A DNA stretch of 64,000 nt from Sthenelais limicola (Eukaryota > Annelida > Polychaeta > Phyllodocida > Sigalionidae), in contig OW804095.1 in the NCBI GenBank assembly GCA_942159475.1, positions 55,332,773 through 55,396,772 on the forward strand, in the 5' to 3' direction. Position 1 is the stretch's first letter, and each line of letters starts with the position of its first letter. Of the stretch, positions 1 through 58,500 are shown piece by piece. The position numbers were made by a program, and so were the translations under genes. Below the pieces are notes generated by a model that saw only the letters and a program-made list of their open reading frames with translations, had not been told where the DNA came from and did not search any database.

Positions 1-1224
1 TGCTTACTAACTTTCTTTTAATATTAAGACTATATGTACATAAGTCTACGTGCTTCGTTTTAATTCCTCTGGACACCTATCTTCTGTACTGATCCCTATA
101 CAGTCCAGTATTGAAAACATGATAATACATGATATAGGAACTCTGATTAAATGTTAAGGAGCAATCTGATTGTAATCTCTGCCTTTCTGGTTAGGTGACA
201 GTTTGATTCCTTATAGAAGTGAACCCTTGAATTTTAATCGAGTTAATATTGGACATTTGAGGAGTCAATTCCATGCCTCAAGCAATACAATAAATAAGCA
301 CCACCGCCGCTTGAGAATTATCTTGATGAATCCCTATTTCAACATGCTGCTCGCATTGCCACCTATAGAAGGAGGGAGTATTACACATGTTCTGAACACG
401 AGCAATAGATCGTTGATATCTATATAACAATACACGTGGGTCCTTGGGAAAACTAAATGACATTCATTGGTATTGTGGAGCTGACATATTATTGAACTAG
501 TCCTTACAGCGATTGGATGATGCAGAAAATTGCCGGTTAACACGGAAATATCAACATTTGCTAGTAGCTTGCCATTTCCCTTTTACCCCTCACGCTTAAA
601 TTCGGATTTGCATAATCAAAGAGGCCTTCTTCTCAGGCGAAAACATCAAACATCGATGTGAACGCCCTATGTCAGATGTTGCATTAGCTCCCGATCCCGG
701 ATACAGCACACACAAGTCAGATTTCCACTTTGAGATACAAACGAATGCTTAGACTCTAAGGTCTGAGACTACAATCGTGTATAATCTGTCGCCAATGTAG
801 AATCAATTAAAGATAATCCTTGGAAACAAATTGTTCTATTCGGCTCCTCCTTTGTTCGCTGCTTTTTGCATTCGACATGAAACTGAACCGCTTTTGAAAA
901 CAATTTCCCCAACAAAATGATGCCATTTTTCCTGTCATATATATATCATATTTACCTGCAAATATGAATAACATAATATGCCATATTTATAATGACCGCT
1001 TGTCGAAGCATAATCAGAGGGCGAGAGTGATTATTACAGCATTAGTAGGACAACAGTTTCCCCGTCCTGGCGCCCATTGATTGAAAACATGGGACAGGGA
1101 GATGCAGAATCTCCATGGCAACCATTGATAGGATAATTTTTATCCAAAGGATGCGGATGATAGCGGCATGGTTGGTGATGGGGGGAGTAGCTCGAATTTA
1201 CCCGAATCTAGGCACTTGTGATTA

Positions 1225-1280
1225 GAATGGATAAATATAATTCTCCCATTTATTTAGTGATTATTCGGAGCGGTCACAGC
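1225..1280 (+). repeat. Dispersed direct repeat, copy 1 (about 55 bp)
   Basis: About 55 bases beginning agaatggataaatataattc recur at 1684-1737 with only a few differences. Both copies lie in the same intron, 460 bases apart. This looks like a fragment of a dispersed element or an old local duplication; no element family was recognised. Confidence 0.7.
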
Positions 1281-1683
1281 CAGTAGAACACATATGGTGT
1301 CTGGCTAGCTGCTTCTTGTGAATCTAGTTTTTAAAAAAATATAATTTCTAATGGATAAATACCACTTTAGATAACATTCACGCCACTTTGCTATTGTTAC
1401 TGAACCGTCATTTATGTTGGTCAGCAATTCCAAATTCATTTGAAAAACCGAGTTTCATAAGGACTTATTGCGCTGGGTATTTCCCCAAATGTACACACTC
1501 TGTACTGGGCTTTTCTGCGTGGCGATATAAATGTTGGCATCAGTGACATTTCCACCGCATATAATGGCCGGATTCTAAGCAATGGTTCTCATTGATGTAC
1601 ATGATCCGTCGCTCTGAAAAGCTATCAGCTGATAAAATATATAAGAGATGTTATGTTACTGTGCATGACCTCGGATGGGATAA

Positions 1684-1737
1684 GAATGGATAAACATAAT
1701 TCTCCCATTTATTTAGTGATTATTCGGAGCAGTTACA
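1684..1737 (+). repeat. Dispersed direct repeat, copy 2
   Basis: This is the second copy of the element at 1225-1280, beginning agaatggataaacataattc. Similarity ends abruptly after about 55 bases on both sides. Confidence 0.7.
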
Positions 1738-4460
1738 GTTAGGAGCAACGAAAGTAACTGGTTATTGTCAATAAAACGTATGCCTTAGTATGTACTAAGA
1801 AGTTCTGTCAATGCCCAATAGCACAGCCGAGCAAGGGGATTAGTTAAACTAAACCTTTCTCAAATGATTCCCTATCCAAAATCTCCAATTAAATTACAAA
1901 CAAATGCAAAGCCTATGTTAAATAGCTTTAATAGAGTCATATCATACGTTTCTCAAGCTTAAGTCTGTCGGCTTCGGTGAGGTGACATTTATAATGTCTC
2001 CACTTCTTTAAAATTAATGATCAAGTCTCACACAATTATATACGGAACTATACCCCTAGTAGGCCTACTGTGGGCACTCATAGATTGTAAAATCATAATG
2101 TCTTACCATTTATGTAGCTCTATTCTGACATAAAGCCCACTTCAAAATAGCATACAAGATTCCCCATGTTAATGGAACAAACGTTCGAAATTAGAATAAT
2201 GGTGGATGGAGTCATACGCCACCTGTAACATATATCACTCCAAGACTCACTCTTTCTTGTCCATTCACCTCATTAAATAATTCAACAAATAGGTCCAGCA
2301 GGGAACGGATTCATTCATGCACAGGGCAAGAATTGTGTCTTCAAAATTATTCCTGTCTCAGCACTTTCTTCATACCCACATGTCATGGAATTTAATTGAG
2401 CTAATATTCGATGATGAGGTATAACATGGTGTTAATCATAAACCTGGACGTGGCAATGAACTAGTGCTAACGAAATCACCTTGTGGTGTTTCGGATAGGT
2501 ATCCATTGCTGCCATGTCAGCACTAGTCTGGGCCTTTGCATCATTGATCGGTATGATAGTTGACACATGGTTATAGGTATTTTCTATTGTGCACAAGCAG
2601 AGACAGTGTTCCCAAGCGAGAGTCAATAATTAATTGAGTGCGAGGATGCTGAATTATTCCCTGTGAAGTGGCAGGCTTGCCCTGACACCTGCAGGAGGTT
2701 TGCTGTACTGGAGGCTCTCCCGGGATGGCTAGCTAACGACCTTCAATCGCTAAGTCCATGGTATTACATCAGGGTTTCCCATGTCAGCATAGCATCTTTT
2801 GTGTCCTCATAATTCGATATGTTAGCGGGATAGCTATACATACTGAGGCCTAAGTATCAAGGATATAAATGATATATTATGTAGGCTGCCATGCAGTTTG
2901 CACTGTGCCAAAACATGTGAAAGTTCGTTTTCCCATTCAAATCCGAAAACCTGGATGTAGGTGGACTTTAAAATAATCATACAATAATAGCAGACCATTG
3001 GAACTTGCGGCGTGGAATTGCATTCCCCTCATTATAGAGATATTTGTAATATTGTATTCGCATTATCATTTTTTTAAATTTATTTTATCAATATGTAAAT
3101 GTGTTTATTATTTCAAACGAAGAAAACTATATAATTGTAGTCTTCCTATTGCAGTGTTGTGGGCCAGTACTTATTATATGTATACCGTTCATCATTTGGC
3201 TTTAATGATATAATTTTTGATGTTCTTTAATGATAATTACTGTTAAATAGGAATATAATATGGCCCATTACAACAGCATGGGTATTGTGGGGCTGCCATA
3301 TTATTGAACGCATGAGATGGAATAGCTATTGCATTGTCTTCGAACCTTGTTACAACATTTCCCTACTCACGAATGTTACTACCATTCTGGGCTAGCGTCA
3401 AACGATCTAATTAAAGATCCATCATTCAAAAGATTTCAGGAATAAAATTATGTTTAGGAATTCAAATAATGATCTCTAAAGATGATGCAATATGTTTAAT
3501 TATGAATACAAATAACTCCGTACCATAGTCATTTTGATTACAATATGGTGGTTGATTGTGACCTTAAATATGTCAGTCAATGTGATTTTTCTTATTATTA
3601 TGGCATCCCTTCTTTTCCTTCGTATGCCCTCCTTACTAGAATTTATTTCAGTTGAATCAATGGAAGGTAAGATCTTGTCTATTCATACTAGCTGTGGGAT
3701 GTTGGTCATATATTTATTGATTGATTTCTTCTTTTTCCATTGGACTGTGTACTTTCGTCCTTTTTCAGTTGCCATTGGTGCAGTGGGCCGGTGTAACGAT
3801 CATGGCAAAACACTGGCAGATTCTTGTCGCGGTAGTTCTGGCTCAAATAAAAGATATATATAACACTTCCGGTCGTCCACGTGCAGTGGTACTCTTACTA
3901 TTCTAACTGGGAATGTCAAGTGCCCAATGCAGACTCAAATCTTTTTCACTCGCTTAATATCATGCACCTAGAATTACACCTTTCATCCTACATTCTGCAT
4001 TTCTCCATCCATCTTGCCTGCGAAGCACTCTAAAACTAAAACTCTTGTATCATATAATAACCCTTAGCCCTATTTGTAATATATTTAACAATCAACATTT
4101 TCAACAGTACAACATTATGGATTATTTTTTTGTTTTGATGACACAATATAACCAAATAAAAATATACACACAGTGATACATACTTTGAAGATTTTAATAT
4201 TTTGACTGCTGTTTGTCAACAGGTATCAGTACATAAATATACAATAGAGGCATAGTTTGCAAGTTAGTATGCTTATGGTAACAATTCCACTCTGTTGGGT
4301 TCAATGTAAGATGTTGGGCCACAACTTATGCGATCGAGAGATGCAATGTTTTTCAATGATCCCTTACTAGGTTTAGTGGAATGGATCTCTAGACCTCCTC
4401 AACAGCGTCTTCTAACAAGTGTTTAACCTCAATCCTCTGCTCTTTTTGTCTGTTTTTCAG

Positions 4461-4553
4461 GTGATCAGCCTTGAAGGTTGGGTTGATATCATGTATTTTG
4501 TCCAGGATGCCCACTCATTCTGGGATTGGGTATATTTTGTGGCACTTATCGTG
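4461..4553 (+). CDS. Cav3: Domain I selectivity-filter exon, version A (glutamate form)
   Basis: 31 codons, phase 0 to 0, residues 1-31. It covers the filter, the second pore helix, the short turret and the start of IS6. The motif LEGWVDIM carries the canonical domain I filter glutamate (codon 4473-4475), which in the family coordinates permeating calcium together with E, D and D of the other domains. It is followed by QDAHSFWDW and the hydrophobic start of IS6, and continues in the exon at 8523. The acceptor is a strong pyrimidine tract ending tttttcag; the donor is gtaagt. An alternative version lies only 62 nt downstream (4616-4708). In mammalian Cav3 the same place reads [17 protein letters not shown], so version A is the ancestral-looking form. 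Confidence 0.96.
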
Positions 4554-7500
4554 GTAAGTACTGCTGTCATTAACTTAGATTTTTCATCGATTTTTATTCA
4601 CTTTCTGTTTTTCAGGTCATAAGCCTAGCGGGCTGGGTAAATATAATGTATTATGTACAGGATGCACACTCTTTCTGGGATTGGATATATTTTGTTTCAC
4701 TAATTGTGGTAAGTAAGATACCATGGCATGGTTCTTCTGCATCCTGTTTATGGAGTCCCCGTTCTCCATACATGTATGAGAGCACAATCCTAGAGCTGTA
4801 GTTCTAGAAGCATTTCAACTCAATTATCAGAGCATTGGAGCGATGCTCTCTCAATCTTTTTTTATTACTTTTCTTCATTATATATTATCTAATGTTTAGT
4901 CTGATAAAGATCCTGAAAACACCCAGCCTACGAACAATTTAAGAGCTAGAACAGCACCAACCAGCAGATTGCCCCTTCTTGTGTATGGGTTTTAGGCCTG
5001 GTCACGGCCTGTATATATATTATATACATATACTTTACGCATACACCTATACAAGGGATGTTGGTTATGGTATTCTGGTGCGTCCCCATGTTGATTAACG
5101 CTGGGCATCGCTTCACCATCAGGCTCGAGTAGATGCTTTTTGGTTCATGTCGTGGACTGTTTTCGAATGATATGCACTTATTATATATGTCAGTTGCATT
5201 AGACAGCTTGCATTGTATTTCCTGTGTGTGCTGTGTGACGCTATCTCCGTTATTCTACCCTCTCTTACTCCGCTCTCACCTTCATTTTCGCCTAGCCTTT
5301 TTCTCCTGCTACTGCTTTATCCCTGTTCTAAAGTGCGCTCAATGTGCTACTTAAGCCTGTAAACAGCAGTGACCCCTCGAATGACATAATCCAGGGTGTA
5401 TACCTCCATCTACCTACCACTCCCATGCATTGACCCCCTGATACGTGTACGCATTCAATTACCTCCCTACATTGACCACCTTACTAACATGAGCAATTTC
5501 TCTCCTCCAGAGACATGTAAGAATCCTTTCTCTCCATGAAATACCACTGGTAAACATTGACAGACCAATACTAATTCATATTCATTAAGTTGTCCTCGGT
5601 TAAATTTGAACCTGTTATGCGTGGGTCCTGCATCCCCAAGACACTCTCCATCTCAATCTAAATGTACAGTCCCTTCTGTTCTGACCTCCGACCACTGCAT
5701 GATATGTTAGAGAAGGCCAACGAACATTGTGAGATATCCATATTCAATCATTACTCCATCTCGACTAAGAAATTATAACACAATGGCGTGTTCCAATATT
5801 CTGGTCAACATTAATGCAATGGCACTGTTTTGCATGCATGTTTATTATCCGTATAAAGCACAGTTTCCTAATTTGCCATCATCATCTATCTAGACAATCT
5901 TCAAAAATAGGGAGGAATGCATGCCTAAAAAAACTGCCTTCAAACACCTATAAAAATATGAAATTCTGAAGGACATAGATTCTGTGAAAAATTGGTCTGT
6001 GTAAAATAGCTCAGAATCTATACGCATTGCTGATATTATCAAGTATTATCAAGCATTGGATTATAAGGTACCACGGTGGGAACATGGTATCTTAAGAAAA
6101 CAATGTTCTTGCATAATACATTTGATTAATCGTAAGCACTTCAATGCCCCTCAATGCAGCCCTGCCTGAATTTTATCATCCTGGCTCAACTGTTTCTCCT
6201 TTCGCTACACTTGACTGATACAAACACTCAATAAGACATTGCTGTGTAGGTATTTGTTCAAATGACTAGCTCCGTCATCGCCATCGTTAGGGCCCAATTT
6301 TGCTCCCTAACCAACACCAGTTGCCGCATTTTGGTTCTATTACACACTTTTTTGCTGAATTGTAGCAACGCACCGACTTGTGAACCCGTACTTCGCCCGT
6401 ACTTATTTTTTAATCCTTGACATACCTGTGAACAACCCTCTTCATGCATATCTAAGGAACAGTCCACATTGAAATTATTAACAACATAAATTGATTTACA
6501 GGAATATATTCCTTTCATCGCAAAAATATTTTGTTGGAGATTTTTTGGACCTACAGCCTTAGAACCTGCGTGGCTATGTGTAACCAGGTTCCGGTTCCGG
6601 TTTTTGTTAACCCTTGTGACTTTGGTGACCTATCAACTGAACATATTGGTATTGTTCCTGTCTCTTGTACAAAGGAAAATCTCTAGTCCCTAAGGATTGT
6701 CTATGTCCTCTGAACAAAGATTCTCTAGTCGGTTTATATACTGTATATGTAGTCTCTGACGAAATATTGCCAAATCCATTCATCCATGGGTTTTGGGAAA
6801 GGATGTACAATAATTGGTTTGTGTCTTGTCTCGTTTCGGTTCTTCTGTCATGGTGAAAACTCCGGTCATTTGTTCAATAGGGTAGTTTTCAATTAATAAT
6901 AATATTACAATTTAACGCGTTGTCTCAATTGTCCATGTTGCATACCCATACTAAGGATTGAACTAATTTCTTTCAACATGATACTCATAGTAATTATCCC
7001 ACGAGTGCACTCTAAATGTAATATGAATTATGAAACTATAATGCGGAAAATAACAAATGAAAAGGTATCAGATGATATGAATGCATGGAGTCACGACTCC
7101 AAAAATTCCTAATGTAATTACTGCTGAGAGTTTTCCTTTCCTCAGTAACAATCAAATACGGCCATAAAAACCTAATGCAAGTTTGTCGTAGACCTGCGCC
7201 CCTTAATGTAATGTACGCGTTATGATGTTTCCACTCTTTGTCATTGCTTGGCTTTGAGTAATGCAAATATTTGCGCCATATTGAAACATCTCAAAATAAT
7301 TTTTAAGTTCACAAAGATGCTGTTTTGCACTTTTGTTTGCGTTCAATATAATCTGCTTCAAGTGTAGGTTAACTCACTTAGATGGCTTCTTTTCGATCAA
7401 TTCCTTTCGACGATAATTAATTTTAAGATTTACAAAAATAGAAGTTTGTAATAGCTATTAGTGCCCAACAATCTACATAAACCCTATTGTTTTATAGATA

Positions 7501-10500
7501 TCCATATATTTACATGTTTATAAAGAAACAGTATTTCCAATATCTAATTTGATGTACAAAGCAAAAATGATTTATTATTCATTAAGTATTGTGCTCGTGG
7601 AAACTATATAAAACAATAATATGATTCAAAATTGGAAATTCGATTTTTTAAATTGATTTCACAAATGTAATTATAACAAATGATAGTTGTAGGAATATTT
7701 TCCTGAATGTATAAACCAATGAAATCCTACTCTGAGTCACAATTAAGAATTAGAGATTCAGGCCTATTTAGGGGAATGGTAAGTTGATCAAGAATTGTAT
7801 TGTCGTAGAATGGTAAGTTTAAGAAAGTACATATACAAGCATTATTTAATTATTCTGAGGATATTTTAAGCTCTGAATCCTTTAGATCTGAGGTGTATGA
7901 AGATGTAGATTGTTAAAGACAGCAGCAAAACCAACCTCTATGCATGCTCGGACTTTTACATGAACTTTTAAAAAGAACTAGCAATGGATATTATTGAACA
8001 GAATCACCGTGATCCGCCAACTTTTTGTTTTTGCGGAAGATATCTCTGGGACCTTATCTTTTGGGGAAAACTTTTTCTAGGCTGAGAGGTCTTATTTGTG
8101 AATCAATTTTTCCAAGTGTGAACATTTTGCTTCGCCGATTTATACCCCAAGTGAGTCTGATTGTTTTTAGGCAACAATATGAGAGGATTTCACATTAGAA
8201 CCACCTGAATGTCCATCGCGTTTGGCATTATCAGTCCCCAAACGACCCTTTATAAGGGCTTCACGTCACTTTTCGTCTCATGCACCGGTTCAAATGGAAT
8301 ATTTTAGAGACACAGACTTTCACTGATTTTAGCATGGTGTGTGACTGAATAGACACACTGCTAGTAGCGTTGTACCTGTATAGGTTGTAATACATGTTTT
8401 GGATTTTGCCTTACAATTTTCAAGAATGCCTTTGCAATAATTTTTCATGTTTTGACCACCAAAGAAATGGGAAGTTCTATGAATATGATCTAACTCGTGA
8501 ATATTTATGATCTTATTTTCAGATTGGAGCCTTTTTTATGATCAACCTGTGTTTAGTTGTCATAGCAACACAGTTTTCAGAGACAAAAAAGAGAGAGACA
8601 GAACGGATGCTGCAAGAACGTAAGCGTTTTAACTCTAGTAGTACACTTGCTAGCAACTCTGAGCCTGGTGGCTGTTATAACGAAATATTAAAATACTTGG
8701 CACACTTGTGGCGGCGGGCAAAAAGGAAAATAAACAGATTATGTCGCCGTGCAACTGGCAGGCGTCAACGCAAAGTCACCCCCGAACGTGCAATATCTTT
8801 ACGACGCAAGAGGAAGAAAAAGAGAAAAGGTTTGCCCCCAACATCACTACAACTGCAAGCACTTCACCCTCATCAACAACAATTACACATCACCAATCAT
8901 CCTAGCAATGCCGAGATGAGCCCCAAAGCTCCTAGGGCTAGTCCAGAGGTATCCGACATCGACCCAGTGTCGTCGCCTCGGCGGCCCAATCAACTGACAG
9001 TTACAGCGGGCGACGGGAGTGCGAATCCTTCAACTGAGTCACTTCACACAGTGACTTACATGACGGAGTGCCTCGCGCCCCATGACCCGCTCCTGTTAAA
9101 ATCCACTAACCACCAGGGGTCTCCAAACAACAACATGACCCCTGGTAGTGGGATACTGCCCCCACCGATGGGGGCAGGTGGTCCAGGGGTAGGAAGTGCA
9201 ACAGCAGGAGGTACTTCCGGAGGAGGTGGAATAGGAAGTGGAAGTAACGGCGGTGCACTGACTGTCAGTGTCAGGAGACAGTCTTCATTCAATAGTCGCA
9301 GTAGTAGTAAGGACTACCCAGCCCCACCGCCGGATCTTGTGACAGCACATGGAGCAAGACACCTCCAGCAACCTCCTCCAACTGCTGATTTTGACAACAA
9401 TAGACTTCACCCCTGTACTGCAGAAGGTAATTACCATATATGATCATAGAACCCATTGACAGCTTAGGGAAAATAAATTATATTATAAATACAATGCGTA
9501 CCAGACATAACAAAAAGGGCAATGACATCGGCCTTGTGCCGTTGGCTACCTATTTGCCTTAATCAGAATACATTATTTCTTTTATACAACTCGGTTCTGG
9601 TTGGGTTTTTTTTATCAGAGATTGGAGTATTCCTGTTCATCATATAGCAGATTGATATGTAAATGTTTCATTATCAGTGCTTTAAATTACTTTATTCTAT
9701 CTTCAATGACTCCATATATAGCTATGTTATGTTTATTATTATTTCTCGCTATACATACCTTACCAATGATCTAAGTACTGATCTCGTATACAGTGGGACC
9801 TCTCTATTGAGACCACCCTTGGGACCGAACGATTTGTGGTCTCATAGCGGGGTGGTCTCATTAGAGGGACTGAGGTATCTAGGTATTCCATCGTTATACA
9901 TACCTTTTACCAGGAATAAAACATCGCATTCATCCTGCCACACAATGAGCCAGAGGGGATGTGGGGTGGTCAGGTGGTCGGCTCAGTCTCATGAGTAGCA
10001 AGCATGTTGTGGGTACAGTTTCACCTCTTCCCCCAGGTACTAGAGGAAGACCACCATTGCGGTGCTTTAGTCTTGGTAAAAAAAATGTAAGAATAATAAA
10101 AAAAGGGCTGGATGACAAGGTTTATCACATCAAATGGCATATCATTTTATATTCAGGCAGAATACCCCAAAGCAGTAATACGGCAGTAACCTTAATCATA
10201 TGTTGAATGCTTTGTTGCAAGATTCATATTTCATAGAAGCATAGGTGTTATTCATGTCCTTGTCCTGCTCTTCATCTTTAGTTGTCGAGAAACGCCGATC
10301 TGCAAGCTTCAGTGATTACGATCCACACAGTCAATCTGAGTGCAACTGGAGCGAGTCTGACTCTGAATCGTCTTCCGACTGGGAGGACGAAGACGAGGAA
10401 CCGAGGCGAAAGCCATTGAGTAAGTTGAATTTACGCAAACTTCCTGTTTTCTATTTCCTCTCTCACTCTCCTTTCATTCAGATCTGTCTATGTAGGAAGA

Positions 10501-19500: not shown

Positions 19501-22500
19501 GACTTTCGATCCACAGTCCTTTTATTTAGGGGATACCGTGGAATGATGAATAATTATACTGGACATTTAATCGAGGCGACCTTGAAATCCCATTATGGAA
19601 TAGCCATTTCATATATCATATGTAGTTGAGTCCTCGGCATGCAGAATAATCCTCGGCAGCAATATAGGTTCTCATTCCAAAGTATTTTGTGTGGAACCTG
19701 GTCGAGTTTTATATCAGCTTATAGTGTGTAGGTTTAGGTTCATGTAATCGCTATTATAGATCATAATCATGCCATCGTTCATCACAGCCAGTCACATTAT
19801 TAGGCCGTTTATCACTATCATGTTTGATTTATGATCATAATCTCAACGATATGTTCTATGTGGTGGCCCCAGTATGCCAAGGCTGAAACAAGCATTCTTT
19901 TACTAGCCACAAGGGACAGGGTTATATTCTAAGTTATAACATTTATAAAGGCGCCTTTCTGTGAGATTACTTACACTGACAGATGCATTTACTTAATCTT
20001 AGGGGCATTCCTTTATTTAAGCAATTTGTAATCATGGGCTATTAAACTCCCAACGTCTGTCGCCATTACTATGCAAGTAGAGTGCTACCAATGTCCATCC
20101 ACTATGGGGTGTGTGTTACAGAGCGCATTCTTGGATGTCACACGGTATTTATTGATCGCCATTTGATAGAATTTACAACATCAATTCTTCATCCTGTTTC
20201 TGGATAAGTGTTTTGTGGGATGGGTAATTTACCATGATACTTGAAATCGTTATGTTGCTGTGGGTCGGAAATAATAGATAACCTAGGTCGATTTCACCGT
20301 AATATTATCATCTCCCTCCTCTCCGACATATATATCTTCTCTAATATAAAGTGAAATCTGTTTAGGGGGCACAAACAAAATAAGACATGATTAGGGGGCA
20401 TAATTTGTATACCTCACAGAACGATTGAAAAGGTTTCATATTTTGCCCTTTTGGCCCTTTTTCCCTATCAGTAATATGTTATAGTTTCATCTAAACTTAA
20501 TTGAAGTTTAATTAGTTTACAGCATCTTTAATTCCCACTGCATGAAACAATGTTGAACTGAAAGCGTATTGTGAGGTACATGTACATCTTTGAAAGTACA
20601 TTCATCTTTAATTCCTACTGCATGAAACAATGCTGAACTGCAAGCGGATTGTGCAGTACATGTATATCTTTGATCGTACATTCATCTTTGATTCCTACTG
20701 CACGAAACAATGCTGAACTGCAAGCGGATTGTGCAGTACATGTATATCTTTGATCGTACATTCATCTTTGATTCCCACTGCATAAAACAATACTGAACTG
20801 CAAGTGGATTGTGCAGTACATACATATTTGATCGTGTATTCATCTTTGATTGCTAGTCCATGAAACAAGGTTGAACTGCAAGCGGAATGTGCAGTATATT
20901 CAGTCTTGTCAGGAACCCATATCAGATTCAAATTCGGTTCTCTGATAGAATAAATAAGTATCATATTTCAACATCCCCAAAGAAATAATGAGTTAGAACC
21001 TGTTGCCAGTGCAGACCTATACTTAATTATAAATCATACAGAATCTGAGATGTAAAGTTATAATTATAGTATTTAGATACATGCTTAGGGTAGGACAGAA
21101 AACGGCTGAAAGACCGAGAGTACACTATAATATTATCTGAACCAAAAAAAAAGTGAAAATAAATGAATATAAATTTTTCATCCGAAAAATAAACAACAAA
21201 ACCTTGCCATTTACTTCAACTTGGTGTCAGGGTGTATTATATCCTATTGGGTAGATACCAGGTGTATTTTCTGGGGATATATTGTCCGGTAGGGCTTTTC
21301 ACCCAACACCCACTGCCCTGCACAAGATCTCCCCCAAAGAGATATAGTATCCCTTACATCGTAGCAGGACGAAAATTCGTCAATGCGAGTAGTATATGGA
21401 ATGTTGTTTTCGACTCGGGCACGCGGCAGCACTTTGCTGGCCCGACACATGCATGTTTCATAGAATATCATGACTGGAGTACATGCATAAATTATATTTT
21501 AATCGTTGGAAGGGGGGTAATTTTCTTCTTTTTTTCTAGGGGGGGGTGTTCTTGCTTTTTTTTCTTTTTCTTCTTTTCTTTTCTTTTTTTTTTTTTTTAC
21601 AAATTGATGCCTCTATCTTAGTGTGTTGGACAGATTAGGAAAGCATATTAATTTTTAAAAAGGACTATTAGCCAACCAATTCAGAAACCTCTATTTATGT
21701 AGCCTAGTAGAGATGATATCGCCTTCAACAATTCATTTAAAACATTTGTGTCTGAATTCCTAGAATAGTTGCGTCCATTGGGCGGATGCTATTGAATATT
21801 TTAAGGTACTATGATAGACTGGATGGCATTGAGTCATTCTAAATTAGGAGCAGTAAAAATAAAATCTTGCTTGGGATAAGTACTCATCTATACGAAGCAA
21901 TAGTTAATGAGCTCAGCTTTTTCAAAGTGTGTACATTTTAAAATGTCAGCTCCTCCTAATTTTCTCCTAAAGAGGTAGTTATACCCATAGAAAATGGCAT
22001 GGAGATAGTCAGGGTCACTTGAAGTGCCCTGCATACTGTTATTGAATGTTTGATTGATTGGTACAGTAATCATGAATGAACGATGACTTGGGATGAAAAA
22101 CAGGCCAGGCCATGTTGTGCACTTATAGGAGATTAGAGCCGAGGATCCCTATTCACTCGCCCATATTATGTCTGGGTTATGACATGTACGAATCCAGCCA
22201 ATCAACAAAGGGCGTCCATTAACTTAATTTGAACGTGCTCTGTCGTCAGACATAGTTCTACGAAGGCTTCTGGCTTGGTGTAACAAAGAGAACCTTCACT
22301 GATCAGACCGTGCGATATCGTAGATCTAAATCGTTCTCTTTTATCGCATCGCAGAACTGGCTATACATCCCTAAGATGAAAGGACAGTGATGGGAGTGGG
22401 TGGGGTGGTGAAGAATCATGGTGTTGGCGATGCAATCCTATCCCTCTTGGCTAGTTGTTGTTAGTGTTAGGTGGGGAATGGGGATGTAAATACAATGAAG

Positions 22501-25500: not shown

Positions 25501-28500
25501 GTGACTCAGTCCGAACATGGGGCTTCATTCCTGGCACGTCCGGTCTAGTTACTAAAAGTATATTTGTAGAGAAACATTTTGACAATTTTGACCTAAGACT
25601 TTTCGTCCTATTTTTGTAATCTGAGATAGGATCTTGCCCATCGTATATATACCATAAAGAATTAAAATAAAGGGGTCTAAATTGTGTAACAAAGAAATTT
25701 CAAGGCCATAGCAACCGGCATGTAATTCATATTTGAAGCCATTGCAACAGGAACGCCTATAAAAGGCTTATATATCCGGTCATAATCTAGATCGATGTCT
25801 CCCATAATCCCTTATTGCTTTCCCATGGTATATATATGTTGCGCATGATCTCATCCTTCTCCCTCTGTTAACTAATACCTCTTTCCCTTCCTTATACCGC
25901 CTTTGATGTTGAGCCAGTCTCGGCTTGCAGAACCCTGCATATTAACCATGTACAAAGAATCCTCCCCTCAGCTTCACCTTCCCTATTCTATTGTCAATAT
26001 TGGTCCTACATATTTATATACCATCAGCCACATAAACAATGTTTCCTTTTATTCGTACTTGACATGAGGAGGCAATGAAACAAGCGTTGTCCTCCTTCCT
26101 CAACGCAGAGGTCAATTCTGTGTAATCAACTTTCATTTTGGTCAAGGTGTTGTTTTTGTTTGCATGTGCAGCGTACTTGGCATGCACTTATTTGGCGGTA
26201 AGTTCTGTGAACAGCCCGATGGCACCCCTTGCTCGTGTGAAGACATCCGAAATGGCACCATTTCATGCAAGGTTGACCGCAAGAACTTTGATACACTTCT
26301 TTGGTCCCTTATAACCGTATTTCAGGTAATTATGAAAATACAAGTCAGGATGCTTGTAAAAGATCTCTATTTAAGTATCTTAACACGTACGGATTGTTAA
26401 CAATAATAATCACTCTTACATCATCTTGATGGTTAATTTTCATCTAAAGTTTTTGCACATTCTTCTGCAATAGTCAAAAGTTTCTTTTTTCATTACAAAT
26501 AAGTGTGTGATCTAGTAATAATCAAGATTGCCGCCTGTTTTTATTATGCTAGAATGAGTAGACTTTGCACACTGATAGTTCTCTAGGAAATTCTTATTAT
26601 CATTGAAATTTGTAATCATACCATTTTAATGAGCAAAAATTACTATTATTTTGTCATTTCTGTTCTGGATTAACTCTCCCAACAATCGATATTCCTGATA
26701 CTCATAAAGGAACTACATTTAGCGAAATTATAATCAGAATTACTCAACCCCCAATCGAAAGTATTTAAAAATGTCATTAAATATAAGTCATTTTCAAGAC
26801 GACAGCATTAGCGAAAGGTATTTTTATTGTCGTGAATATTGTTATGCATTATCTCCATTAGCAAGTATGTAGAATGCATGAATACATATCGTGGGATGAT
26901 GGTAATTATCTATATATAACTCATGTGGAGAATGCTTTTTGAATGTAAATTGTTTCATCATTTAGCTCCTTGTTACCCCACTCATTCGTCTAGGAGCCTA
27001 GGTATTTTCCCAATATCTGATACGAAAGGAATGATATCACACCATACTTTCACAAAAGCCACTCCCATGTCAAAGGGCTGCATATAGTAGCCCATATTAC
27101 CTTGAATTCTACCAATCAGGAAATTATTTTAAGTACATGTTATTGACCGACAATATTACTATGATATATAATGTTATCGGTTAATATGAAATGTGCATAT
27201 CAGTTATCTATCTTCGGAGTTGTCTGCTGCGTTGATTATAAACCCTAGCGATGTCCAGAAGCAATAATATTATCACATGTGTACATAATGCACATGGGCC
27301 AAAGCTTGCTTTATTCAATTGACAGCGTATTGGCTTTTAAAGCATGAGCCCTAGTTGCCTAGTACCGAGTAGTGTAAGACCATTATGTCCGTCGTAGACA
27401 GGAAAAGTGTCCCAATAGGAAGACCATTTTCCGGTTATTTTGATCCGTTTCTCTATCTGCTATCCCGATGACAATATGCGGTATCTTGTCGCTGAGTCTC
27501 CAGGCGATAATAGGCGCCGATAACAGCGGCGAGCCGCGTTAGCCGCACAGTTGTGGACGGTGACGGAAAGATGGAGAAGATTCTCAAAGATTCTATTTGG
27601 CTCCATGCTTCTTTCTAATCCCGTTAGGTACGACATTTAGCTCATCTGCAGCCTTTCAATCAGAATCCTAGCATCCTCTTGCAAATAGCATCAGCTGGCT
27701 ACCGTCAGCGAGACCATGGAATCCACTTACCTCTGGCTAAAAGCTGATAAGTGAATTATCGCTGAATGGGTTAAGAAAGATGCATTGTCAGACTGGATCT
27801 CTGTGAACAGGAGTCTGTGGTTTTGACGTAATCCATACTCCAACATTCAGATTTGCACAAGTAAGTTCTCTATCAGACAACGTAGTTGTTGTTGGAGGTG
27901 GTGAATACTTGTCAACCAATAGAAATGTATAGGTCCAATTGGTTGGCAGTCAACGCATTAAAAATCCTGATGATGCCTGCAGCATATCAGTGATGCCAGG
28001 ATGTCCCTGAATTACATTCATCCATAGTGATTTACTAGGGCCTATCAGCCCTAAGGGTTTGATTCATCAACAAATAGAACAAATGACGCTATTCACCAAG
28101 CTTCTTTGACAAAGGACGCGTGATAGCAAGGGACTCAACGGGTGGCATTGATTGTGGTACAGGGAATCACTTGTACATGGCGTTTCATGGAAAGCGTCTG
28201 AGCCAATGCCTTTCTCAGTAGAACAATTCAGACAAGGACAAAGGAAATAAAACAATAATAAAATACTTTTTATTCTTAACGGTTTCCTGGTGACCCTAAT
28301 CCTTGGGGGTATTTTGTAGGTTTGCCCTTCTCATGATAATCCTCCTCCCGTGCCTTGAGGGGAGACTTTCCAGGCCTGAAAGCGAGAATAATGGCATTGA
28401 AAGTGATAACATTAACAGTACTTCCCCTCTGTTAATCTAGTCATCCAGCCGAGTGGTTCAAGTGAGCCGCTCTCTGTGGTCACATACAACCTCAAAAATC

Positions 28501-31500
28501 CATTTCAATGCACCTCATGATGCAATGAAAATCCATATCATCATACGGAACCCATAGATTCCTCATTGATACACCCTTCCATCGCAGCCACCACGTGCGA
28601 AGCTCGAAGCTAGAAATGAATAGGTCCCCTTGTTTTTACCCGAATATGCACTATAGTGACGGGGGTGAGCGACCAGAGAAGAATTATTTTCCAACTGCTA
28701 GCATCAAGGTCTGTGGAGGCAATGAAAGGTATGGTGGCATCTCTTGAGAAAATATGCTGAGCAAGCGGAATTTTATTAGCCATGACACTAACAATGTGGT
28801 TAGGGACATCCCCAGAGGCATGTGACCTCCTCCTGCCTGAAATGCCCATCGGGGTATTAATACAGAAGTCCTTAGTAGTTCCCATGTATGACCTAAGTAA
28901 TGGGATGGTGTAATACCATTCATTCCAGTACCATTGTCCCATAAAATGTATTACAGATTTGATGTATGAGGCAAAAACATAGATGTAGCCCTTTGACGTG
29001 AGCGTGGCCATGAACTAAAACTCATTTTACCAGTGCTAGGTCTCTTATTGCACGTATGCTATATTACCTTATTATATTATCACGGTGCTATGTACCCATT
29101 ATTGTAACAAGAGGTTATCAATATCACAAATATCCTATTAGTGAGAGCAAACGTAAATGAAGATTAACTTATTAAATGACGGTTACTATAAATACAAACA
29201 CTCAATATCAAATGATAAATCCTTGTCTTTGAGAAATACATAATAATCCTGTCTGTCTGTTATTCTTTAGATCCTGACACAGGAGGACTGGAATGAAGTA
29301 TTATACAATGGAATGCATAAGACCTCCGCATGGGCAGCTTTATATTTTATAGCCCTCATGACGTTTGGCAACTACGTACTCTTCAATCTGCTGGTTGCCA
29401 TTCTAGTAGAAGGATTTTCCACTGAGGTAAGACCTTTGTTTTGTTTTGAATGTTCTATTAAAGTATGTTGATGATTATTGCGCCTCTGTCTCCATTTATG
29501 CCACATATGGTATATATTATATCAATGGCATTGTACACTCAACTAAGCTCATCATGTGTTGCGATTTCTGAAGGTTGTTGAATCCATGATTATTTGATAT
29601 TCTAAAGAATGCATGGCCAAAGATTGTGCTGTCTGTCCTCGCAGCTAGTACGCACTCCGGCCTCTCCTTTAATCTTTAACGGGTTTGTGAATCGATAAGC
29701 TTCAATTGAGTTATGAAAGGTTTCTGGATTATGTTGTTACATTGGATTATTTCCAAGAAATCAAAGGGTTAAATTTTGATCATTGATATCCAATTAGGCG
29801 GAGATCTCTTGAGGGAAATTCTCCTTTTCTCCACTTTGCTAAATACGACTCCCAATATAACACGTTTTGTTCCTCCTTTCATTTATGCAGTGGATAAGAA
29901 ATCCTGTCTGACAGGGTTTTCATTTTCACTCTTCAGCTTAAAGTATGGGTTTCTGAATGTCTGAATATCTCAAGTAGCCTACAGGGAGTAAAAGAATCTC
30001 GATGATAAAAATGTATTTGAATAATCTTTACTTATGAGTTCCAGGGCTGTACGTTATAACTTTGACATCAATGTGGTGTTTGTTCGTGCCAAATTAATCT
30101 TTCTTTCGGCTTCCCAATGAAACTGGAGTCTCGTTGGTGTTCCCACTGCAAAAATATTAGTAGGTTTTCATTCTACTATGTCCCATAACTTCCGCTATAC
30201 TCGAAAACACAAGGTGTGCATGTGAGGAAAATCGCTTTCACGGTGGGGATTACCCAGAATGAACGCATGCTCTAGCTACACCTTGTAAATTTAACAAGCC
30301 AGCTTCAGCATGTCCTTAAAAGTCTAGGAGTTAACGATGCCATTACTCATGGTTCCATCGGCAAATACGACATGAATTGTGTCATCATGGCTTTTAGCGC
30401 GCTAACATTAAGGCAAGGTCTAGCTGAGAAAGGGAATTAAGATAGCATTGCGAGCGTGGCTAAAGCGGCGGTTACTAGGTAACTGTCCCTGAACATAGCA
30501 GGTGTGCCTGATCTAGAGACGAAACCCTTCAACCTTTAGACTAAAAAATCAATACATCCTGTCAACCCAAATATACAGGTTTAAATGTAATTCAGCACTG
30601 AATGTCTCACGAATTTCAACAGGTAAATGGAACACCTGCTGCGGCGAAATATCTTGATAGTATATTCCTATTGTATTTGTCCCTTTCTTTAATTATATTA
30701 AGAAATAAATTGGAGAGCCCTTGCAGAAACATTGTATATTGCTGTTACCCGTTTAAATGGAGAACACACGTATTATATATGATGACTGTTTTTATTTGAA
30801 GTTGAAATAAACGGGTGAGATGTGCAGGTATTCTGCCCCAAACAGAAAAAGAATTCATTAAACCGTGTCGAAGCAACGTATTATAAGTGTTTTCTTTGTG
30901 CGCAACATTCTCATATTCATTATATCCCCTAAAATTACGAGATATGTGTTACATTGACACAAATAACACAAACACATTTTTCTTTGTCGGTCTATATGTT
31001 GGGGTTTTGTACAATTATCATTTTGTATACATTTATATCATTGGGGCAAGCAATGCCTGGTTGACAAGCTTTTGCTATTAACCTTTTCAAGGATATGTAC
31101 TTTCCATAGTTCCGAGTATTTATTTTAGATTTTTATATTACCGATCATACGTATCAACTTGGTCGTTCTGCATTGTGTGTTTACATTAAAAACAATATTA
31201 TTCTAAGGGCAAAGAGTCGAATGACTCCTGAAAAGGGATTTATACCAACGAGCATACATTGGGATAGTCTCGTTGTTTATACCAAAGGAGAAGATTTCTT
31301 CCAGTGTATCTACCGGTCAGACTCTGACACTATATATTGGTACTCCAACGGACTTTGCGCAGATCGATATAAACCCATCTTTCTGCATTGGTCTCCTCAG
31401 ACGGGAAAGGTTCTGACCCCCTAATCCCATTTTCCCATAGGAGTAGTAACGGTTCGACCCCCTCGGTTACCATTCCCTCTCTAAACAATTGTTCTGTTGC

Positions 31501-46500: not shown

Positions 46501-49500
46501 AATCTATACTGTCATCAACAGTTTCAGGGCTCTGTATTCTAAATTGATTACACCCAGCTTTCTTGGTTAGGAAAAAGATGAGGCAGTTGTTGTATCCTTT
46601 ATGAACATACCTTGAGCGACATGCCAATTAATTATGCATCTGAAAATGCACGTCAAAATCCATTATAGTCAATACGATAGTCATTGCTAAATGACTTTCA
46701 TAAATTATATGTTCATGACAGCACGACATCGATTCATACCAGGCAGTCTATGAACCGGAAAATGAATATTTCACCTTCGAACGTTTTCAACCTATTGTTC
46801 TCTTTTTTGGTGATGATTTGTAGGGTGATCAGCCGAGCTCCTGGGCTGAAGCTCGTTGTACAAACTCTACTATCATCCCTTCGCCCTATCGGAAATATTG
46901 TACTCATCTGCTGTACATTCTTCATCATCTTTGGCATCCTAGGTGTACAGGTAAAGTTTGTCCTTGGTTATTGATCGAAGTAAAAGGAACCAAATTAATA
47001 ATGTAAATATATTATTGAAATAAAAAATGTTAATTATGATGGATATAATAATTATTCCATCACATAATGATATAATAGCGGAGCATTGCGAAACACAATT
47101 AAGGGACTTTATCTATTCCATTTTTTAAATATCAAATTAATGTAATTAACATAATTAATAGTATTTAACATAATTTATGTCAGAAAATAATGATGTGTTA
47201 TAGAATCTAGCTGTAATAGTAGTATAGTGTTTTATTGAAGGCAACGCGTGAGAACATCAATGTAGGAAACTGCGTTTTTTATATGTAACTGTGATTAAAT
47301 GTTATATTGGCCTAAATGAAAAATAATAATAATTAAAAAATCTGTTTACAGTTATTTAAAGGGACATTTTACTATTGTGAGGGACCAGATGTCCATGACG
47401 TCAAGAATAAAACAGACTGCATCAATAAAGGCCCACCTTTCCGGTGGGTCAATAGGAAATACAATTTTGATAATTTAGGGCAGGTAAGTTGTAACTGTTT
47501 ATAAGATGATGGAATAAAAATTCAATATACCTGGTACTCTCCACCTACAGAATCATCGCAAGGCTTACCGCAAAGCTTACCGTAGCCAATTGGAGACCCC
47601 ACTTTAAACATTATGACCCAGTAGCAAGAAAAATCTAAAATCGGTGTCTTATAAACCGATTTATATTTTAAGAGTAATTAATCGGAAGCCATGTTCTTTG
47701 TCATTAGATTGCATTTTGATTGCATGATTAATTCCCCTTTGAATTTCGCCATTCGGCCGATGCTTGACTGGTTCTGGAAATGTTTTACAGGCACTGATGG
47801 CTCTTTTTGTGTTGGCCTCGAAAGACGGTTGGGTGAATATTATGTATACAGGACTGGACGCGGTAGGAGTTGACCAACAGGTAGGGCTGTTTTTTTTTTG
47901 TTTTTTTTTTTAAAATCTTATTGACACAAATTTCACAAGTTGTGATACGCATCATCTATAGCTTTGGAAAATCGTAAATGAATCAACATTCAAGATAGAG
48001 AAATGATTACTCTAATTACTTGCACGCAATTGTCGCTCTTATATATTAGTGAGTTAATCAATGTCGAATTTCAAAAAGACAACTTTATGAAGAAATGATA
48101 AGCCACTGACGAAAACATGTGTTGAACATTGACTGACCCCTTGTATGTATTTCTGTCCGTCAGCCCATAGAGAACTATTCGGAATGGCGCTTGTTCTACT
48201 TCATCTCCTTTCTGCTGCTTGTCGGTTTCTTTGTGCTCAACATGTTCGTCGGCGTGGTCGTGGAAAACTTCCACAAATGTCGCGAGAGTCAGGAGCAAGA
48301 GGAGCGAGCCCGGCGAGCTGCCAAACGGGCCAAAAAGCTGGACAAGAAGCGGCGAAGTATGAACTCCTCATCCTCCTCTGAGAGTGATAGTGGAAAGTCG
48401 AAAGGCACTTTCTCCATGTGTACTGAGTCTGGCGCAAATGATGAGGCTGCTACACTACCAGGTTTTTGAATGGAATCCATTCTATTTCACTCTTCCGCTG
48501 AACAAATATTGACACACCATTTTGTTAATTAATGCTAATTATGCTAATTAAAATGGTTGTGGCCTCCATCCTGCATTGTGTTGGGAAAAGCTTGAAACTA
48601 ACCCTTTCTTGGCTTATGAATTGGATACTAAATTTCCTTCAACGAATGTTATGATGAAATTGCTTTGGTTCTTAGTTCTTTTGCTTTGGATACCACATTA
48701 AATACCTTTACTAATCCGGGTGTTAAATAGAGTATGGCTTTTGGGCATCAATATTTCTTTGGAAAACTGTTTATTTGAAAATTAAAAGTTTCTTTTCAAA
48801 GCCATAGTGGTGGCGGTGAAGATAGTGAACATGAATATGAACATGACTATTTAATGGTTTACACCAAACAATCAGCCACGTTTCGAACATTGTCGTAAGA
48901 ACGTGAGTTAATAGCCTGGAAGCCTCGTTTTATATCAAATGGTATTGTACGTCTTGTGATAGCAGCAGATTTTAGATTTTGTACCTGTAGATGATATTTA
49001 CTACAGACTTAATTTTGCATGTTATCACCCATGCAGCTCTTTTAAAAGCAGTCTTTCTAGTTGAGAACTGCGTATATAGCATATGGCGACCTCAGATACA
49101 CACATAATAGTATGACACGATACTATACATAACGATACGTGGATTTTGGACCGCCAAAGCTTAAGCTGTTCTATTTCTAGATTTAAAGATGCTTATTTAT
49201 TTAACATTATTTTCCAATGTTTTACAAGTTATTTTGTAGAAGATAGGATTCGTGTCCTGCGAAATTAAGTAGCGCTTGTTATGGATATAATTATTGGATG
49301 ATTGATATCAGTTTAATTAGTGTTTGTTGTATTTTGTATCGTGACCACGTGTGAAAAATGCATGCATTCAAACATCTATCCCCAGGATCATGACGAACCA
49401 ATCAAAATGATCCAAATATCAGTTTTACTTTCTTTGATAGGCGTATACGTTTCCAAAGCCAACCCCAACATTTCCTATTATATTATAAACGTCTAAATAC

Positions 49501-55500: not shown

Positions 55501-58500
55501 ACAGTTGATTCTTGTTTTCCCATGAAAATTTAGCCTTTGTTTCAGAGGCCTTGCATTTGAATAGATTGTATTAACTAACCATCTAACCCGTCCTCCAACG
55601 AATATGTTTCAAGTATGCTCGTCAAGACTTACCGTTCATCTTCTATTCATAAGGAATAATTTATATAACCTGACTGATAATGCTTTGCATAAGCGCATCG
55701 TTGATTGTCGGCAGTGTTCTTGACGCCGAAGCAGGCATTATGATAAATTAGTGGGTCAATTCCCACAGAAAATAGGCATTAGTCAATCTGTATGCCTTTC
55801 TAGTAAATATTCCCATGTTCAGGACATTGTTTATATAAAAAAAAAAGATATTCAAATAAAGATTTCTTCCTATAAACTACTTCTCACATTTAAAAAAATA
55901 TGGCACACAGAATTTGTTCCTCAAGACACTTTATTATTTTTAACAACTCACTCTGTAATTGATTAAGATTGTCCACCTCAAAACTCCCTTACCACCCTAA
56001 CACAAACACATAAAACTTTGTCCCCGACCTTAGGTGCTATACATTGAAGGCAAGATATTAATTTTGTTATTTTGTATCTTAAACATGTTTTCCAATATGT
56101 ACCGTATGCACTGATGTTTTCCCCTGATTTCTAGGTGGAACCAGTTGGACATTGCCATTGTCATATTATCTATTATTGGAATTGTGCTTGAGGAAATGAA
56201 ATCTAATGTTATTCCTATCAATCCGACTATAATCCGTGTAATGCGGGTGCTTCGAATAGCCAGAGGTAAGAAGAAATTAAAGACTTCTAAAACTTTAATT
56301 TGACTTAAGCATTCCACATGAAAACAAATATAATGTAAATTAAGCTATTGGTACCGTGAAACAGATGGTGGCTATTATATGACTTTGGCATGTTTTTGTC
56401 AGACTATCTATACCGCAGTTCCTAAATGATTAAATGTAATTGTCAGTTGTCTCCTTACTCATGAATTATCCATTTCAGTCCTCAAATTGCTCAAAATGGC
56501 GAAGGGTATACGAGCCCTTCTGGACACGGTTGTCCAGGCGCTCCCACAAGTTGGAAACTTGGGACTACTGTTCTTCTTGCTATTCTTCATATTTGCCGCA
56601 CTAGGCGTGGAGCTGTTCGGCCGATTAGGTGAGGTTTTCTCCGGCATGAATCTCTCATGTTACAGTTTAGATATATATATATATAATAGTATGCTCTTTT
56701 ATCATATTGTGTTGTTCAAGATGTTTCAAAATATGCATTCATAATGAAAAACTATTCATTTTCGCCGGACTTTCGATTGTGTTATGCTGCTTACCACTGT
56801 TACAATCGAACTTAAATCTAAAACCCGGGTTTCACTGAGCAGACTAAAGATTGGCCGGGTCTCTTTGGGGCCCAAGAGACGATTGGACGCGGCCAATCTT
56901 GACACATGAAAAGACTGGTCAGCTGCTAGGTGGTGATGCGTGTCCACTAGCTGTGTCCACTATCTGGACCCTAACAAGCGAGTCTGCGTCCCATTTACTA
57001 GACTGGAAAAACAGTTCAATGTACCCCCAGACTTTAGAAGTCAGACACCATACCTCATAACACCAAATCTCTTTTCTCCATTGCAGAATGCTCGGTAGAT
57101 CATCCGTGTGAGGGCCTGGGCAAACATGCCCACTTCCAAAATTTCGGCATGGCCTTTCTGACTTTATTCCGTGTTGCCACTGGTGATAACTGGAATGGAA
57201 TTATGAAAGATACTCTACGGGAGGATTGCGATCCTTCAGATAACTGTGTCCGAAATTGCTGTGTTAGTCCAATCATTGCACCAGTCTTCTTCGTCGTTTT
57301 CGTGCTTATGGCACAGTTCGTTCTTGTGAACGTCGTGGTCGCTGTTCTCATGAGGCACCTTGAGGTAAGTGTTTTGAACTCTCATACATGAGAGCTTACG
57401 GATAAATTAATTATCTTTTTGCAGAATGCTAAGTTATATCACAAGTATTGAAATTTCAACAACTTATTAACTAATTATATTATATCATTCGGGACTTCTT
57501 AATATCTAGATCTTGAATTTCAAATATAGATATGTATTGATAAGCGTAATTTAAATGATTCCCGTTTAACTGTCGAAATATGTAATCATTAAATAATGTG
57601 ACTTTTAATTAAAACGATGAATTGTTAAGAATTTCTAGCTATAGGTTACCACGTAAATTAGAGTTTTACCACTTCTTATATTACACTTTTAGCATATTTT
57701 AGAGTATAAGTTTGATAGCACATTGGAACCTCTTCTATAATTACCATATCAAAGCGAGTTTTCACTAAGTATTATTTGACGTGAATCCGTTAAGACTTTA
57801 AGATTTATCTTTATCTTTTTACTCTTGCCATTCACATTTGAATCCTTCGGCACATTTTCCTATGCACAGTTAGAGTATTTTAGACAGCACCTAAGTTCTG
57901 TTTTTTGGAATTTTGAGAGAGTACTTACCTCAACCATCAAAGTTTTAAATCTTCATTTAAACCTATATGCAGGCTTTATGAACAGATCTACCATTCACCC
58001 AAATGAACATTGGTTTTTCATGAAAAACATTATACACGGCCTATAGAACATTATTTGGCAACAAATAATCAACTTGCTTTTCCCTCCCCCACCTCTTTCT
58101 TTGGTTATATATTACCCCAGCGCGGTATTGGCAGTTAACCATTTTAGCTTCTATTCTGAAGATATAGAAATGATTCGAAAGATATGAAAGAAAGTGGTAC
58201 GTCATTTGATGTCTTGCTATCTGAATAAGTTTCTGAAAGAAAACATCTCGACTGGTGTTATATCAATATAGGAGTCGCACAAATCGATGGACGATGATGC
58301 GGAGCTAGAAGCTGAAATCCAGCGGGAGATAGAAGAGGAGGCTCGCCTAAAGGCAGAACAAGAGGCGGCAGCCCTGCGAGAAAAAGAGGATGTAAGTCTG
58401 AAACCAGCGGGCCCCCATCCATTGACCTGAAACCCAATATTCCATTTCTACTACCCACCCACCCACTCCTCGTATTCTACTCCTCCCCGCTTATACCACC

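Follow-up and report, generated by a model that had tools for sequence, protein, structure and literature searches.

Can a single calcium channel gene decide by splicing whether the selectivity filter of its pore contains the domain I glutamate? The question is raised by a 64,000-nucleotide stretch of the genome of the polychaete Sthenelais limicola (contig OW804095.1; hereafter the window), in which a first-pass annotation had described two adjacent 93-nt exons that code for one and the same part of the domain I pore in a T-type channel. The Cav3 (T-type) gene lies on the + strand, extends from 4461 to approximately 58.3 kb and fills most of the window; the portion contained there is the larger part of the gene, running from the P-loop of domain I as far as the proximal C terminus. 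In our analysis the coordinates of the two exons proved exact and their translations, containing LEGWVD and LAGWVN, were confirmed. The domain I region is arranged as follows:

4461..4553, + strand: exon A, domain I P-loop and filter (LEGWVD, with the filter Glu) and the start of S6; 31 codons, phase 0
4554..4615, + strand: intron between A and B, 62 nt, in which the adenines at intron positions 20, 33, 43 and 47 are branch-point candidates
4616..4708, + strand: exon B, counterpart of the exon A segment, in which Ala occupies the filter position and Asn the +4 position (LAGWVN); 31 codons, phase 0
8523..9426, + strand: next exon, domain I S6 and the start of the I-II linker

The two exons stand in tandem, are of equal length and begin and end between codons. 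The splice sites of both are intact (tttttcag before and gtaagt after each exon), and either exon can be joined in frame to the exon at 8523..9426. A tblastn search of the window with the A and B peptides revealed no third copy, the other matches being either short or located in the domain II and III pores. The exon preceding A, expected to end in a sequence like FDNIGLAWVAIFQ, was absent from positions 1-4460 in a six-frame motif search and with a probe, and therefore it probably lies outside the window. We also noticed that 4.7 tandem copies of an 80-bp unit, with 89% matches, lie at 20523-20896, between placed exons of the gene.

Between exons A and B, 18 of the 93 bases and 5 of the 31 residues are different: E5A, D9N, F13Y, V24I and A28S. 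In an alignment with the Cav3.1 (alpha-1G) chain 6kzo_A, the first of these residues falls on residue 354. According to PMC7382465, E354 is the domain I filter residue of Cav3.1, and together with the domain III Asp (D1463) it defines the narrowest point of that channel. The assignment to T-type channels held up as well: the top four PDB matches of both the A and the B segments are alpha-1G (two chains), alpha-1H and alpha-1I, so that the best matches among solved structures are Cav3.1, Cav3.2 and Cav3.3, and the tree described below places the window sequence among spiralian Cav3 proteins. The filter residues of the remaining domains are encoded by three exons further downstream:

29271..29426, + strand: domain II filter exon, TQED, with the filter Glu and the +1 Asp
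47791..47880, + strand: domain III filter exon, SKDGW, with the filter Asp
57087..57364, + strand: domain IV filter exon, TGDNW, with the filter Asp; exon ends placed by eye

With exon A, the ring formed by its Glu and by the residues of TQED, SKDGW and TGDNW is E-E-D-D, the combination which two reviews describe as "always" (PMC10120453) and "universally" (PMC6259924) present in Cav3. With exon B, the ring is predicted to be A-E-D-D, as the first-pass annotation had proposed: the domain I Ala breaks the EEDD pattern and domains II-IV are unchanged. By its predicted translation, exon B is an exception to the invariant Cav3 filter. It also lacks the acidic residue located four positions downstream of the filter, where the Asp at +4 is replaced by Asn.

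The gene contains another pair of alternative pore exons, whose types are named after PMC4436565 and PMC7382465:

24790..24907, + strand: alternative exon for the turret of domain II, known 12a type; short, with three cysteines
26172..26325, + strand: alternative exon for the turret of domain II, known 12b type; longer, with four cysteines

Both exons of this turret pair are open, and the 12b-type exon has four cysteines compared with the five described as usual. The A/B pair is not of this kind, as it sits in domain I and alters the filter; it is likely to be a splice-made filter switch in Cav3, placed beside the known 12a/12b switch. In principle, the domain I pair together with the domain II pair would allow four pore combinations. 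In a protein of Lymnaea stagnalis (P0154), with ESWVI in domain I, turrets of the 12a and 12b types are both present in one model, and therefore gene models alone cannot prove exon choice.

The divergence of the two exons bears on whether both have been maintained. The first-pass annotation had counted 12 of the 18 nucleotide differences as synonymous and had concluded that both exons are kept by selection. We find the same 18 differences and 12 codons with silent changes, whereas the Nei-Gojobori method assigns 13 of the 18 to the silent class, because the Glu/Ala codon differs at its third base too. For 18.5 silent and 74.5 replacement sites, the 13 silent and 5 replacement differences correspond to pS of 0.70, dS of approximately 2.07, dN of 0.070 and a ratio of 0.034; dS is near saturation over 18.5 silent sites, and its value is therefore rough. 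When sets of 18 random substitutions were simulated 20,000 times, starting from A or from B, none produced five or fewer residue changes. The flanking introns of A and B retain little common sequence, their best local alignments being only the 12-nt acceptor stretch TCTGTTTTTCAG and GTAAGTA. The near-saturated silent divergence, combined with the low dN, argues that the duplication is old and that both copies are under purifying selection, in agreement with the earlier conclusion.

The short intron between A and B suggests how the two exons would be used. At 62 nt it is the shortest of the 15 gaps between placed exons; the other 14 measure 190-6279 nt, and some of these may contain further exons. 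All four candidate branch points, of the YTNAY type, are located 20-47 nt from the A donor. Such short distances between donor and branch point are known to hinder splicing, as a general rule rather than one specific to annelids. With every branch candidate at most 47 nt from the A donor, the joining of A to B would be hindered, and from this short intron we infer that one exon would be chosen at a time. Joining both exons or skipping both keeps the reading frame, and therefore nonsense-mediated decay cannot enforce the choice. The pair is likely spliced alternatively, with one gene giving rise to channels that would differ in the ions they pass.

To place the pair among its relatives, three protein searches were carried out, which yielded 242 distinct proteins (120, 120 and 53 listed, overlapping; the first two are the best 120 of 4000 and the best 120 of 4141 passing). 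The protein database was clustered at 90% identity, and splice forms of one gene may hide within one cluster. The domain I motif was readable in 238 of the 242 proteins, the remaining four starting inside the exon, where they cannot be scored. Among the matches listed, the Glu is kept in 236 of 238, and the filter Ala is present in two, P0056 (Owenia fusiformis) and P0034, both with AGWVN; among the shorter database proteins, none of the 49 readable (of 53) has the Ala filter. Absence of exon B from all close relatives had been named in the first-pass annotation as an observation that would refute its claim; this is not what we see, since a B-type segment is found in P0056 and P0034. Both proteins contain four Ion_trans stretches, and in both the AGWVN segment runs directly on from FDNIGLAWVAIFQ. 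Their domain II-IV filter residues are E, D and D, as in the window, and compensation for the lost Glu by another domain was rejected, since these residues are unchanged in all three channels.

The proteins of Capitella and Helobdella have EGWVD (the A type) alone, and those of Owenia and P0034 have the B type alone. A and B occur together in the window only, in a comparison made with the proteins of the relatives; the genes behind the Owenia protein and P0034 may be without A, and those of Capitella and Helobdella without B. This restriction would be in line with exon B being a decaying relic or an assembly artefact; however, its frame and splice sites are intact at near-saturated silent divergence and the identical Ala/Asn pair is found in two other channel proteins, and we regard such an origin as very improbable. 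A chance duplication or artefact was likewise rejected on the basis of the divergence, the intact splice sites and the relatives. The search of viral contigs found no relative.

Three further proteins, P0003 (Pollicipes), P0121 (Oncorhynchus kisutch) and P0193 (Zophobas morio), were considered as carriers of an A/B pair and rejected, as the two copies of the segment within each protein are identical peptides. In a gene model of Ephemera danica (P0194) the domain I pore exon (EGWTD) occurs twice in tandem, with an identical peptide and with an apparent read-through intron between the copies; this doubled exon would be either an artefact of the assembly or a tandem duplication that arose independently.

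A tree of 28 rows and 1465 columns, from which the A/B exon itself was excluded, was obtained by a quick search with SH-aLRT support only. The window sequence grouped with P0034, Capitella and Helobdella (98), then with Owenia (92) and then with the nemertean Tubulanus (96), with the molluscs apart (98). The branching within the group of four is unsupported, and the Helobdella branch is long. The presence of AGWVN in two further proteins, together with the grouping of the window with annelids, suggests that exon B is probably old. Owenia is a member of the earliest annelid branch. If exon B arose once, it would predate the divergence between Owenia and the remaining annelids in the sample.

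We also noticed that the Asn at +4 is common to exon B and to the mollusc and rotifer Cav3 proteins, whose domain I motif is mostly ESWVN. Ser or Asn directly follows the domain I filter Glu in 34 of the 238 readable Cav3 proteins, among the matches listed (e.g. P0004, P0012, P0015, P0129, P0131 and P0173). Thirty of these have ESWVN, and ESWVI (Lymnaea), ESWVT (Brachionus), ENWVN (Rotaria) and ESWVD occur once each; 30 of the 34, and 27 of the 30 with ESWVN, are named as molluscs or rotifers. The Ser or Asn at +1 departs from the glycine that is stated to fill this position in domain I of Cav channels in a review (PMC10120453). One reading is that an old spiralian exon pair existed, different members of which were kept by different lineages; convergence is equally open.

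Several known systems resemble the A/B pair. In NALCN, also a four-domain cation channel, the adjacent duplicated exons 15a/15b (domain II) and 31a/31b (domain III) switch one filter residue from Glu to Lys, and 15a/15b are mutually exclusive in snail cDNAs and found in annelids and molluscs among others (PMC3557258, PMC4436565). The A/B exons are likewise adjacent and homologous, in frame with common neighbours and different at the filter residue; in contrast to NALCN, where the change is Glu/Lys in domain II or III, here a Cav3 gene exchanges Glu for Ala in domain I, and the acid at +4 is also lost. The invertebrate Cav3 exons 12a/12b (LCav3) belong to the same channel family and set the preference for Ca2+ or Na+ by an alternative exon (PMC4436565, PMC9694082), but the part they alter is the turret of domain II, and the filter ring stays as it is (PMC4436565, PMC9694082, PMC10017353). 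In the anthozoan Cav3a and Cav3b a pore acid is also neutralised in one of two forms (the domain II +1 Asp to Asn; PMC9694082), but these are two genes, not two exons, and the position and domain are different. The Nav2 ring (DEEA), like the predicted A-E-D-D, combines three acids with one Ala and is described as non-selective for Na+ and Ca2+ (PMC10120453); its Ala, however, is in domain IV and fixed in the gene, and the channel is without the domain II +1 residue.

The statement of the first-pass annotation that no exon is known to replace a filter residue has to be narrowed accordingly: it does not hold for the four-domain family, in view of the NALCN Glu/Lys exons; for Cav channels, no report of a filter-swapping exon was found in the open-licence literature, searched mostly at the level of titles and abstract beginnings, a result that does not prove absence. 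No open-licence paper was found that names an "AEDD" ring with a calcium channel. Filter-swapping exons are already known in the wider family, and the claim of novelty has to be limited to Cav channels.

The loss of two acidic side chains in domain I, the filter Glu and the Asp at +4, would weaken the high-affinity Ca2+ site. On the basis of Cav2 E-to-A mutants and of the behaviour of Nav2, we predict that the B form would pass monovalent ions better and divalent ions worse. As reported in PMC6899504, Cav2.2 E314A, mutated at the corresponding filter position, retained little inward Ba2+ current and carried a substantial outward one, mainly of Cs+, and the surface expression of the domain I E-to-A mutant fell by 53.5% in N2A cells and by 76.3% in hippocampal neurites; in Cav2.1 the E-to-A change markedly decreased the inward current, gave a substantial outward current and lowered surface expression by 33.5% in N2A cells. 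The functional precedent is therefore Cav2 and not Cav3, and these mutants also lost surface expression, so that reduced trafficking of the B form would be a real alternative to an effect on selectivity. The loss of surface expression and the small inward currents would fit a B channel that conducts or traffics poorly and serves to tune the amount of T-type current rather than to switch selectivity. We consider this unlikely, as exon B is open and spliceable and its protein is nearly unchanged despite near-saturated silent divergence, the Ala/Asn pair recurs in two other proteins, and the outward monovalent current of the mutants was substantial.

It may also be asked whether the B form, although used, would leave selectivity almost unaltered and act mainly on gating, on inactivation or on block by drugs, protons or divalents. 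This possibility would agree with the position of F13Y, V24I and A28S, three of the five changes, outside the filter. The fungal channel Cch1 bears an NEEE filter. In PMC6259924, NEEE is listed among calcium or non-selective filters; this listing also counts against the predicted shift in selectivity, since a channel with a neutral residue in domain I may still select for Ca2+. However, the two strongest substitutions each eliminate an acidic side chain in or close to the filter, and the narrowest point of Cav3.1 is defined in part by the domain I Glu, as noted above; an effect mainly on gating, inactivation or block is, in our opinion, distinctly improbable.

Our preferred explanation, which we hold with reasonable confidence, is that A and B are two intact forms, placed in tandem, of the Cav3 domain I pore segment, one or the other of which is likely spliced in, and that exon B would give an A-E-D-D filter with weaker Ca2+ binding and greater passage of monovalent ions such as Na+. 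A broader proposal seems to us possible rather than probable: the annelid Cav3 may have a two-switch pore, in which the domain I filter exon (Glu/Ala) and the domain II turret (12a/12b) would yield four pores from one gene. The A-E-D-D form would then be a naturally occurring channel, produced by splicing and weakly selective for Ca2+, and no earlier Cav channel would be known in which splicing chooses a filter residue. The pair may have originated in early spiralians, only the "WVN" copy (ESWVN) having been kept in molluscs and rotifers.

A conserved exon B without the domain I Glu is, in effect, mutagenesis performed by nature on the central element of Ca2+ selectivity, and the A/B pair makes it testable whether a working Cav3 pore needs four acids. 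It would also be a further case, after NALCN, of a filter residue edited through duplication of an exon, this time in a voltage-gated calcium channel.
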